Of a stretch of 21,565 nucleotides of DNA, positions 9,377 to 12,756 are shown piece after piece (positions within the stretch are counted from its first letter, which is position 1; every line of letters begins with the position of its first letter). Source of the DNA: a virus; the IMG/VR virus record IMGVR_UViG_3300010373_001368, positions 1-21,565 of that record. One strand, 5' to 3'. Under the pieces are notes generated by a model, which saw nothing but the letters and a program-made list of their open reading frames with translations, was not told where the DNA came from and searched no databases. The position numbers and the translations under genes were made by a program.

Positions 9377-10558
9377 ATGGGTAATGTAAACGTAACACTT
9401 GGTAATGGCGCTCTTGGCTCTGTGCTGCAAACCCAGGACGGTATTGCAGGCATGGTGCTCAACGGCACAGCAGAAGGCACTATCGTGGCAGGCACGCCAT
9501 TCCTTATCACCAGTCTGCAGGATGCAATCACTGCCGGACTGACGACAACTAATAATCCACTGGCATATAAAAATATTACAGACTTCTATGCAAATGCATT
9601 GAATGAAGGAGCGCAGTTATACATAATGCTGGTTCCAGATACTATGACGGTAGCTCAAATGGCAGACAAGACCAATACAAATGGTGCTATCAAGCTATTA
9701 CAATTTGCCGGTGGCAAAGTGAGGATACTTGGAATTATGAGCGATGACGCACATGTATATAGTGTAGGCAGTCCTGTAGTAACCACAAATGGTATCAATG
9801 CGGATGTATATACAGCAGTAACAAACATACAGGCTTTGGCGCAACAATTCTTTTTGGCAGAGCAGCCTTTCCGTGCAGTAATAGGTGGTACATCTTTTAC
9901 AGGTACTGCTTCCAGCTTATCGGACCTGACAACAGAAGCAAACAATCGTGTTGCCGTTTTAATTGGCGATACTGTTAGCGGAGCGAATGCCGCTTTAGGA
10001 TTGTGTCTGGGTACTCTGGCAGCTATACCGGTACAAAGAAAAATAAGCCGCGTAAAGAACGGACCGTTGAATACCAACACTGCGTTTATTGCAACAACGT
10101 CAGCCGACCAATATACACAGACAGATGCTATCACTTCAAAGGGATTTATCACTTTTAAAGCCTATCAAAGCTTAAGTGGATTTTTCTTTACCGGCGATCC
10201 CACAGCAACTACAACAACCGACGATTATGCAATGCTGGCTCGTGGCCGTGTGATAGACAAGGCACACCTCTTAGCTTACGCAACCTTTGTACAGGAAGTG
10301 GATGATGAAGCTCCCGTAGATCCTAAAACAGGATTGATCGACCCAGGCTTTGCACTATACCTGCAGCAACAGATGGAAAACCAGATCAATCTCTCAATGG
10401 TTGCAAATAATAATTGTAGCGGGGTTACATGCTTTATTGATCCTAATCAGAACGTGCTTAGCACAAGCCAGCTAAATGTAACGCTGAAAATAACACCTGT
10501 GGGCTATGCTACAACTATTAACGTGACCCTAAGCTTTGATAATCCAGCAAACGGGTAA
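9377..10558 (+). CDS. Contractile tail sheath protein (DUF2586-like)
   Basis: Forms the outer contractile layer of the tail. The 393 residues start with a glycine-rich segment and a short beta domain. Long alternating strands with AALGLCLGTLAAIPVQRKISRVKNG (about 205-229) and a C-terminal domain with KAHLLAYATFVQEVDDEAPVDPKTGLIDPG (about 296-325) follow, a layout I recognise from DUF2586-family phage sheath proteins. The size is small for a sheath but usual for this family. The C-terminal NVTLKITPVGYATTINVTLSFDNP strand would interlock with neighbouring subunits. The tube gene follows after 29 bases, the classical sheath-tube order. The start is supported by the leader motif upstream. Confidence 0.85.
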   Translation: MGNVNVTLGNGALGSVLQTQDGIAGMVLNGTAEGTIVAGTPFLITSLQDAITAGLTTTNNPLAYKNITDFYANALNEGAQLYIMLVPDTMTVAQMADKTNTNGAIKLLQFAGGKVRILGIMSDDAHVYSVGSPVVTTNGINADVYTAVTNIQALAQQFFLAEQPFRAVIGGTSFTGTASSLSDLTTEANNRVAVLIGDTVSGANAALGLCLGTLAAIPVQRKISRVKNGPLNTNTAFIATTSADQYTQTDAITSKGFITFKAYQSLSGFFFTGDPTATTTTDDYAMLARGRVIDKAHLLAYATFVQEVDDEAPVDPKTGLIDPGFALYLQQQMENQINLSMVANNNCSGVTCFIDPNQNVLSTSQLNVTLKITPVGYATTINVTLSFDNPANG

Positions 10559-10587: not shown

Positions 10588-11016
10588 ATGGCAATACAAG
10601 TTTTTAATAGCCAGGAATGCGAATGGTCGGATATGGCAATAACGCTGGCAGGCGCTCCGTTGGGAAAAATACGTAGTGTACAATATACTGTTGAACAGGA
10701 TAAAGCACATCTGTATGGCGCGGGCGACGAACCCATAAGCATACAGAGCGGTAATCGTAAATACACAGGCACTATCAAAGTATTGAAAGGAGCTTTTGAT
10801 GATATCAACGCTGCTGCAATAGAAGCTGCAGGCAGAGATCTGCTCGACCTGGAATTTGATATCGTGGTGGTATATAAAGCAAAAGGTAACAGACCATTGC
10901 AAACCGATACATTGGTGCGTTGCCAGGTGAGCAGCTATAACAGGAACTGGGATCAGGGCGCAAAACAAATGGAAATATCCCTACCCATATTATTTCTGCA
11001 AATAAAATCTAATTGA
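10588..11016 (+). CDS. Tail tube protein
   Basis: Stacked hexamers of this protein form the rigid inner tube inside the sheath. The 142-residue product is mainly beta, with the pattern of tube proteins of the gp19/Mu M type: an early strand pair (ECEWSDMAITLAGAPLGKI), a GAGDEPISIQSGNRKYTGTIKVLKG block at about 46-70, and a late strand with VRCQVSSYNRNWDQGAKQMEISLPI at about 112-136. Position straight after the sheath and before the chaperone and tape-measure genes confirms the role. The leader is very A/T-rich. Confidence 0.85.
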   Translation: MAIQVFNSQECEWSDMAITLAGAPLGKIRSVQYTVEQDKAHLYGAGDEPISIQSGNRKYTGTIKVLKGAFDDINAAAIEAAGRDLLDLEFDIVVVYKAKGNRPLQTDTLVRCQVSSYNRNWDQGAKQMEISLPILFLQIKSN

Positions 11017-11043: not shown

Positions 11044-11361
11044 ATGTCGCAGCACATATTAATAGGACAGGCAACGGACGAAAAAATAGCCGAATGGAAA
11101 CAGCAATATCCGCAAGGTATCTATGCTATTGAGTCAGATGATCATATCGCATATTTCAAAAATCCTAATCGTAATGAAATGAATTGCGCTATGAGCAAGG
11201 CATCGCAGGAAAAAGCTCTTGATATGTATGAAGAGCTTGCCAATTTAACTTTCATTGGAGGCAGTGAAGACGTGATCAAAAACGACCAACGTTTTTATGG
11301 TCTTGCCGGCCAGTTAAAAACCAAGTTTGAAGGTAAGAAAGCTACCCTGGTAAACTTATAA
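11044..11361 (+). CDS. Tail assembly chaperone (G-type)
   Basis: A 105-residue soluble protein between tube and tape-measure genes, the fixed place of the tail-assembly chaperone. It contains KIAEWKQQYPQGIYAIESDDHIAYFKNP (14-41) and ends at TAA 11359-11361. A second open frame, -1 relative to it, starts within its last codons and runs to 11531, encoding a conserved-looking domain without a start codon at its beginning. Frameshifting would fuse the two into a protein of about 162 residues (G and G-T forms, as in lambda and many tailed phages). The chaperone coats the tape-measure protein during tail assembly and is not part of the mature particle. Confidence 0.75.
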   Translation: MSQHILIGQATDEKIAEWKQQYPQGIYAIESDDHIAYFKNPNRNEMNCAMSKASQEKALDMYEELANLTFIGGSEDVIKNDQRFYGLAGQLKTKFEGKKATLVNL

Positions 11362-11394
11362 CGGAAGCGCGCGGCGGCCCGGAGCGCGACTTCC
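11349..11394 (+). promoter_or_regulatory. Candidate -1 frameshift site with downstream hairpin
   Basis: GGTAAAC at 11349-11355 is read in frame as G_GTA_AAC, an imperfect X_XXY_YYZ heptamer: the A site can re-pair on AAA, but the P site pairs poorly. Seven bases later a strong stem begins: GGAAGCGCGC (11363-11372) pairs with GCGCG (11384-11388) and CTTCC (11390-11394), leaving one bulged A and an 11-base loop. Ten base pairs, mostly G-C, stand out in this AT-rich DNA. The zero-frame stop lies between slip site and stem. Spacing and stem suit a frameshift stimulator. Confidence 0.55.
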
Positions 11395-11531
11395 TTGGGT
11401 TTTATGAAACACTGCTTGAATATTACATGCCGGGCCTCGACCATAAGAAATTAAGCGACCAGGAGTTTGCACAAAAAATAGCTCACCTCGTATATATCAG
11501 GACGAAAGAAAACAATATAAAAAGCACATAG
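11355..11531 (+). CDS. Frameshift extension of the tail assembly chaperone (T domain)
   Basis: In the -1 frame of the chaperone the DNA is open from 11337 (after TAA 11334-11336) to TAG 11529-11531. From a slip at AAC 11353-11355 it adds 58 residues, including GGPERDFLGFYETLLEYYMP and a helical KLSDQEFAQKIAHLVYIR segment. This is clearly protein-like, yet its first part has no ATG, GTG or TTG. The only in-frame ATG (11427) would discard the FLGFYETLLEYYM part. It ends five bases before the tape-measure ATG. In other phages the T domain contacts the tape measure. Independent translation from 11427 remains possible. Confidence 0.6.
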   Translation, partial: LITEARGGPERDFLGFYETLLEYYMPGLDHKKLSDQEFAQKIAHLVYIRTKENNIKST

Positions 11532-11535
11532 CAAG

Positions 11536-12756
11536 ATGGATAGCATTGTACAATTTGCAATACAATCGAGTAATATATGGAACAGCATTGTAACACCACA
11601 GGTGAACATACCTACACTGCCGGATACATTATTGCCTGGCAACAATATTGCTACATCCACAACAGGCAATGTAGATAATTCGTCATCAACTGATGGTTTG
11701 TTGCGGCAATTGAATGAGAAGATAGATGCCTTTACAACATCGATAAATTCTTTTAACGGAAGCGTACATAATTTATTCTCCGGCAATAATACTGCTAGTC
11801 ATTCTATTGCAACAGCAAACAAACTTGACGCACCTGCTAACGCGACACCACCATACATTATACAATGTTGTTGTGGCGAAAACAATAACGGCACAACCAA
11901 TGCACCGCAAAAAGAAGAAAGCACACTAGATAAATTTATGGATAAGGTGGGCACAGTACGTGACGTTTCAAGCACTGTAGAAGATGGAGCAGATCTATTG
12001 GGACCATTAGTTGATGCGTTAGGATGGAAAAAAGCGGGAGGCATCATCAGAACAATCGGTAAAGGAGCAGGAAAAGTAAAAAAATTTACAGGCTTCGTCT
12101 CAGACGTGAGAAATTTAGGCGAGGGAATGGTAGATGTTGCACCCTCGGAAGCAGAAGGTGTTGCAGCAACAGCAACAGAAATGGGGGGCATGGCTGCCGG
12201 CGGCCTCGAAGTAGGAGCCGCCGAAGGAGTTGGCGCATTGGCAACTGCAGGAGAAATACTAGGTGCAATAGCAGCTCCGGAAGTATTAATAGCAGCGGCT
12301 GCGGGCTATGGGTTGTACAAGGCGGAGCAGTATTTATTCTCTGAACCAAAAAATGTATCCGGCCCGGTTATGTTCAATCCTAATTCACCGGCCTCCTCAA
12401 TAAATACAGATAATGGATTTCGCCTTAGTTATTCGGATAACACTGCCGTACACCGACCCTATATTCCTTCTATCGCCGCTAATCAGCCATCCCAATTCCA
12501 ACAGCCTGCAAATACAAATTATATAGCAAGACACTGGAGTCCTAACGCTAATATGTCCGGAGCGACCACACATTTTTTTGGAACCAATACTGATCACAAT
12601 GTCAACACCACAAAGAATATTACTATCAACGTGAGCAAATTCTTCGATAACATAAATGTGTACAACGATAATAAGTTGACCTATAAAGAAATAGAACATA
12701 AAATAATTGGTGTGTTTACTCACGTATTAAACGGCGCAGAAACTTCAAACGATTAA
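11536..12756 (+). CDS. Tail tape measure protein (short)
   Basis: Sets tail length and leaves with the DNA. Identification rests on position after the chaperone and before the baseplate genes, on low-complexity composition, and on the C-terminal ITINVSKFFDNINVYNDN strand (about 364-381), which is seen at the ends of such proteins. Other visible parts are a helical LLRQLNEKIDAFTTSINSF segment (55-73), a Cys triplet (111-113) followed by Gly/Asn, an amphipathic charged region (126-190), and an Ala/Gly-rich hydrophobic stretch (about 215-265) that could enter the host membrane. At 406 residues it is short. With the usual 1.5 angstrom per residue the tail would be about 60 nm. A different tail-core protein is conceivable. 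Confidence 0.68.
   Translation: MDSIVQFAIQSSNIWNSIVTPQVNIPTLPDTLLPGNNIATSTTGNVDNSSSTDGLLRQLNEKIDAFTTSINSFNGSVHNLFSGNNTASHSIATANKLDAPANATPPYIIQCCCGENNNGTTNAPQKEESTLDKFMDKVGTVRDVSSTVEDGADLLGPLVDALGWKKAGGIIRTIGKGAGKVKKFTGFVSDVRNLGEGMVDVAPSEAEGVAATATEMGGMAAGGLEVGAAEGVGALATAGEILGAIAAPEVLIAAAAGYGLYKAEQYLFSEPKNVSGPVMFNPNSPASSINTDNGFRLSYSDNTAVHRPYIPSIAANQPSQFQQPANTNYIARHWSPNANMSGATTHFFGTNTDHNVNTTKNITINVSKFFDNINVYNDNKLTYKEIEHKIIGVFTHVLNGAETSND

Follow-up and report, generated by a model that had tools for sequence, protein, structure and literature searches.

A probable programmed -1 frameshift with an asparagine slip codon in the tail assembly chaperone gene of a Bacteroidota-type phage

The DNA analysed here, called the window throughout, is the whole of the IMG/VR virus record IMGVR_UViG_3300010373_001368 (positions 1-21,565; 21.6 kb). 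Sequence comparison indicates that it very probably comes from a contractile-tailed phage of the Bacteroidota type whose tail assembly chaperone gene would give two products, a -1 frameshift being the best explanation of the locus. Such a programmed frameshift had been proposed in a first-pass annotation made from the sequence alone, and it is strongly supported by the relatives, in which the second domain is always found in the -1 frame, the slip codons are frozen and the downstream hairpin covaries. Frameshifting in tail chaperones is known, and the differences here are confined to the shift codon and to how the stimulators are balanced; open-access papers yielded no earlier description of this frameshift in phages of Bacteroidota. 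The features of the locus are collected in Table 1.

Table 1. Features of the tail chaperone locus in the window, with the evidence for each
Feature	Position	Strand	Evidence
Tail sheath	9377..10558	+	DUF2586 (E 3e-50); phrog_907 tail sheath
Tail tube	10588..11016	+	phrog_4579 tail protein (E 4e-14); FP_Mushu homologue annotated 'tail tube'
Predicted tail assembly chaperone, short form (105 aa; 0-frame gene)	11044..11361	+	ORF; phrog_19076 (E 7e-15); AF2 model; gene position
-1 frame ORF, without a start codon at its beginning	11337..11531	+	T-domain profile in the -1 frame in 103/103 relatives
Putative slip site G_GTA_AAC (core A_AAC at 11352-11355; AAC to AAA in the -1 frame)	11349..11355	+	Junction at the same place in 103/103 relatives; codon freezing
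Second ('T-like') domain, residues past the slip (58 aa)	11355..11528	+	Helical AF2 model (pLDDT 82)
7-nt spacer with Leu codon TTA and 0-frame stop TAA (11359-11361)	11356..11362	+	Sequence
Predicted stimulatory hairpin (10 bp, bulged A 11389, MFE -18.6 kcal/mol)	11363..11394	+	Fold; compensatory changes; folding peak
Short tape-measure-like protein, immediately 3'	11536..12756	+	phrog_305 tail length tape measure protein (weak, E 0.0015); position; annotated tape measure genes there in relatives

The genes of the window follow the order sheath, tube, chaperone, T ORF, tape-measure-like gene and then hub proteins, the chaperone gene being flanked by those of the tube (major tail protein) and the tape measure; from sheath to tape-measure-like gene the relatives share this order. 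At only 406 aa, the product of the tape-measure-like gene would, if it is the whole ruler, point to a very short contractile tail. In one relative, the Bacteroides phage BS-TP1 (L005, PQ571274), the sheath-like and tube-position genes are annotated as 'DarB-like antirestriction' and 'portal protein', which is probably wrong.

The chaperone of the window and 49 of 55 sampled relatives match phrog_19076, a family of unknown function. An AF2 model built on an alignment of 48 relatives reached a pLDDT of 90.8, and among solved structures it matches 3fgx best (RBSTP2171; Z 7.7, TM about 0.56, sequence E 1.6e-4), whose protein is uncharacterised; the similarity to the HK97 tail assembly chaperone 2ob9 is weak (Z 3.6). 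The position between tube and tape measure and, less clearly, the resemblance of the model to these structures support the prediction that the product is a tail assembly chaperone. The known tail chaperone families in Pfam and PHROGs showed no sequence match to either domain, and a TOPRIM_C match to the chaperone (E 0.003) fell below the Pfam cut-off and was judged to be due to chance. The search of the 58-residue extension against phage domain families, which the first-pass annotation had suggested, gave nothing in Pfam or PHROGs. A Foldseek search of its model against the PDB gave no match under E 0.001, an absence that is not evidence of a new fold.

Regarding the reading frames, the -1 frame is closed upstream by a TAA at 11334-11336, remains open over 11337-11528 and ends at the TAG at 11529-11531. 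These limits, the chaperone stop, the missing start codon and a fusion of 162 residues (104 + 58) had been described at first reading and were confirmed. Relatives were gathered from IMG/VR scans, a phage collection and cellular genomes, and profile HMMs built from the first homologue set yielded 103 distinct junctions in the first round. The relatives include prophages, namely L172 (contig 2831999959) and the Chryseobacterium prophage loci L139 and L140. Clade-wise alignments were used because a mixed profile of six homologues was too divergent for pattern scans. According to the profile HMMs, the T domain lies in the -1 frame in all 103 distinct loci and in none of them in the 0 or +1 frame, which bears out the earlier view that this frame encodes a protein-like domain. 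The loci from cellular genomes and the newly found clade members present the same relation wherever both domains were recognised.

The slip codon is placed one or two codons ahead of the 0-frame stop in the 103 loci. The junctions fall into the classes AAA_AAR (33), GAA_AAG (24), GTA_AAG (17), GTA_AAC (12), AAT_TTN (5), GCA/TCA_AAG (3) and others (9), the commonest form in the family being A_AAG after AAA, GAA or GTA. When the sequences were read by eye, a Z_ZZN tetramer in the right frame was counted in the last codons of 100 of the 103 junctions; six of the nine in the last class have one (G_GGG, A_AAG one codon earlier, T_TTA or T_TTT). In three loci related to one another, L049 (2786-2794), L054 and L090, the junction CTG-GAG-GAA-TTG-TAG has no Z_ZZN, although their T domain also lies in the -1 frame, and re-pairing of the Glu-tRNA on GGA via G.U pairing may be needed there. 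A proposal of this kind, with G.U re-pairing, exists for the actinophage sites GGGGGAA and CCCGGAA (PMC10885494). In L157 and L159, from G+C-rich cellular genomes, the chaperones are distant and the T domain again follows in the -1 frame, but the last codons show no slip motif; the overlap between chaperone and T domain in L157 is long (84 nt).

Conservation of the slippery sequence, close to the 3' end of the first ORF, extends to the codons. Across 18 members of the window's clade, whose last four codons are CTG-GTA-AAC-TTA, CTG and GTA never vary and a single deviation occurs at each of AAC and TTA, while a single codon was kept in 0 of 32 other conserved residue columns (mean 2.9 codons). 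Among six close relatives all of the last four columns keep one codon, versus 6 of the 55 amino-acid-invariant chaperone columns elsewhere. CTG and GTA are upstream of the shift and hence not dual-coding, yet they are frozen. Moreover, the 15-nt string CTGGTAAACTTATAA is also present at the junction of the faecal phage L006, whose chaperone is only 23% identical and in which TTA makes up 6% of the leucine codons. The sites of the GTA_AAC form occur in the window's clade and in at least two other lineages; on the chaperone tree, many forks of which are poorly resolved, AAC loci occupy at least three separate places.

In terms of known classes, the window presents a Z_ZZN tetramer, with an AAN codon after A in the zero frame. 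A canonical X_XXZ_ZZN heptamer is found in relatives with A_AAA_AAG and A_AAT_TTN and is absent from the window, where the XXX of G_GTA_AAC would be GGT. A homogeneous purine or pyrimidine ZZN gives high -1 efficiency in E. coli, and the AAC of the window is mixed; in E. coli A_AAG is the best tetramer, and with the IS3 pseudoknot A_AAC was outside the ten above background there (PMC4066793). Since A_AAC is not above the E. coli background and the GTA tRNA would pair poorly on GGT, the efficiency could be low. Shifting at a low percentage is nevertheless plausible, because U_UUA_AAC shifts about 2% (data cited by PMC6787027) and a frequency of about 1 in 30 is enough for lambda (PMC5009743). 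Queuosine at position 34 (Q34) of tRNA-Asn influences how AAC and AAU compare in shifting (PMC6787027). The slip site is a non-canonical variant in an otherwise standard frameshift architecture. The earlier remark that it differs from GGGAAAG was right and can be sharpened, the family using mostly A_AAG and the window's clade A_AAC. The further suggestion that the mechanism in the host group may differ went beyond the data: the architecture is standard, and the differences are limited to the shift codon and the stimulator balance.

The same frameshift could also take place one codon later, on A_AAC_TTA, with tRNA-Asn in the P site and tRNA-Leu in the A site, and this would predict an identical fusion sequence (VNL-ITE). 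TTR comes after every AAC site (TTA in 11 of 12 and TTG in 1 of 12), the sister loci L011, L012, L037 and L173 carry a canonical A_AAT_TTA or A_AAT_TTT, and AAC and AAT sites adjoin on the chaperone tree. However, re-pairing from TTA to CTT requires a first-position mismatch, GTA and the G before it are frozen as much as AAC, and the TTR preference is equally explained by avoidance of proline, since AAC followed by CTN would give a proline in the -1 frame. Slippage on A_AAC_TTA is considered unlikely, though it deserves some weight beside the slip on G_GTA_AAC. The close relatives L173 and L171 have nearly the same hairpin, one with GTA_AAC_TTA and the other with GTA_AAT_TTA, and form a near-single-base natural pair.

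The second domain could also be a separate small protein, made by reinitiation after the chaperone stop. Overlapping genes are common in phages, an ATG, GTG or TTG of the -1 frame is present between -40 and +36 nt relative to the stop in 27 of the 103 loci, and some annotators called a truncated T gene, as in FP_Mushu gp39 and pippi8-1 gp39, where the annotated start is inside the T domain. On the other hand, this start is an ATG in only 7 of the 103 loci, the other 96 having no ATG near the junction, and seven loci, including the close relatives L002 and L095, have no ATG, GTG or TTG anywhere in the -1 ORF. In the window itself the earliest of these codons, an ATG at 11427-11429, falls midway through the conserved part of the domain, and the ORF overlaps the chaperone gene without a start of its own. 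Reinitiation also leaves the frozen slip codons unexplained; it is very improbable and was rejected. The first-pass annotation had made its proposal depend on homologues whose second domain does not start on its own and whose slip site and stem are kept, and this is the pattern found. The public annotation of the Winogradskyella phage Peternella_1 omits the frameshifted T domain; the omitted or truncated stretches lie after 2736 in L007, at 2867-3046 in L008 and at 3048-3176 in L009.

The imperfect heptamer, the seven-base spacer and the ten-pair stem with a bulged A are all present as first described, with GGAAGCGCGC (11363-11372) facing GCGCG (11384-11388) and CTTCC (11390-11394). The stem had been called exceptional. 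Owing to the very high G+C content of its 45 nt, the stem taken alone does not stand out from their dinucleotide shuffles (z about -0.75), so the case for it is comparative and draws on its conservation and on the folding peak over the 103 loci. When 45-nt stretches were folded across these loci, the lowest mean energy (-10.9 kcal/mol) was located at offset 0, that is, at the 0-frame stop just past the slip site, where the mean z was -1.26 versus -0.28 to +0.04 at four control offsets. Six close relatives alone gave no clear covariation, in part owing to two lineages whose pairing is register-shifted, and the signal became clear once 11 more loci were added. For 11 loci of the window's clade in one shared register, 90% of the cells are paired, with 11 double-change cells versus 2.4 expected; for the upper stem in 17 loci the figures are 8 versus 2.5, and in both cases the observed number was reached in 0 of 500 shuffles. 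The Chryseobacterium-type clade, mostly with A_AAA_AAG, has another hairpin at the same place that also covaries (8 versus 2.2 expected, 0/500 shuffles). Judging from these alignments, the predicted hairpin is preserved through compensatory changes. A pseudoknot formed from the conserved GGNGGNCC loop was rejected, as the encoded Gly-Gly-Pro accounts for its invariance.

A hairpin seven bases 3' of the site is typical of ribosomal shifting and speaks against slippage of the RNA polymerase. Some relatives, with A_AAA_AAG/A sites, could in principle slip in this way, but the run of A at the site is only three long in the window and its clade, too short for the polymerase, and transcriptional slippage was rejected as extremely improbable. 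A sequencing error or a decayed gene, in which an indel has broken one chaperone gene, would look the same in a single sequence with a one-base deletion, but it is refuted, with practically no probability left, because 103 distinct loci, sampled independently, share this frame relation and protein motifs are conserved on both sides.

Under programmed -1 frameshifting, most ribosomes would terminate at the TAA at 11359 and release the 105-aa chaperone. A minority would pause with the hairpin at the mRNA entrance and GTA and AAC in the decoding sites, where the tRNA on AAC would slip back one base (AAC to AAA), probably together with the GTA tRNA (GTA to GGT). Decoding would go on in the -1 frame and give the 162-aa fusion of chaperone and T. 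If lambda gpG/gpGT is a guide, the tape measure would be coated by the chaperone part and tail tube subunits would be recruited by the T part (PMC5009743).

Two kinds of stimulator appear to be used in the family. A Shine-Dalgarno (SD)-like element centred 12-15 nt before the slip codon exceeds synonymous shuffles over all loci (p about 3e-5); the signal is present in the GAA_AAG, GTA_AAG and AAA_AAR classes and was not found in the AAC class. L003, L013-L015 and other A_AAA_AAG or G_GAA_AAG loci carry an AAGGAGG-like SD element within the coding sequence, in phages whose hosts are believed to make little use of SD for initiation. The hairpins of the AAC class are stronger than those of the AAG tetramer class (mean -16.6 versus -7.8 kcal/mol, p about 4e-6; p 0.016 for the four gut-type AAC loci alone), a difference that is partly due to higher G+C (0.62 versus 0.47). 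As the loci are also non-independent, the sequences point to a trend, not a proof, in which AAC sites would pair with strong hairpins and no SD-like stimulator, and many AAG sites the reverse.

It can be tentatively proposed, at somewhat under even confidence, that in the probable Bacteroidota hosts a -1 shift of useful frequency takes place on A_AAC, with a mismatched GTA in the P site, against the E. coli rule. The cause might be properties of the host tRNA-Asn or ribosome together with the unusually strong hairpin, and lineages might trade an easy slip codon with an SD-like stimulator for a poor slip codon with a strong hairpin. About 120 homologous frameshift cassettes are now available that differ naturally in slip codon and in the strength of the stimulator, and among them is an asparagine slip codon which would be rated poor by current bacterial rules and prediction tools. 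With them it can be tested if the rule measured in E. coli extends to other phyla. Furthermore, phrog_19076 gains a predicted function and a second domain that annotators omit or truncate (Peternella_1, FP_Mushu, pippi8-1).

Comparison with known systems places the locus as follows. Canonical A_AAU_UUA heptamers are known from retroviruses, and A_AAT_TTA stands at the homologous place in L005, L011, L012 and L173; unlike in this type, AAC replaces AAT in the window and breaks the X_XXZ_ZZN rule. Among insertion sequences, the slip site of IS1222 is CGA_AAG. Frameshifting on Z_ZZN tetramers is described for bacterial insertion sequences, such as those of the IS3 family (Sharma et al. 2014, PMC4066793). 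As in those sites, a single AAN codon would re-pair on AAA after a variable P-site codon, with a strong 3' structure or an upstream SD-like stimulator; unlike the E. coli data, A_AAC is conserved here in at least three lineages. PRFect covers slip motifs of actinobacteriophage tail chaperones beyond XXXYYYZ, including GGGGGAA with G.U re-pairing; it was trained mostly on high-GC actinophages, and GGTAAAC is absent from the example compositions in its main text (PMC10885494). Its GGGGGAA is close to the exceptions GGGGGAG and GGAGGAA among the relatives. A conserved frameshift in the tail assembly chaperones of tailed phages was reportedly described by Xu, Hendrix and Duda in 2004. In lambda, the tail assembly chaperone frameshift of this kind is that of G/GT (Atkins et al. 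2016, PMC5009743). Lambda slips on GGGAAAG, unlike most relatives here, which have A_AAG with a tolerant P site, and unlike the window's clade with A_AAC. As in lambda, the gene lies between tube and tape measure, a short and a long product are predicted, the shift would occur near the end of the first ORF and the T-like domain is in the -1 frame. Apart from the weak fold match to HK97, the locus fits the lambda G/GT type on every testable feature.
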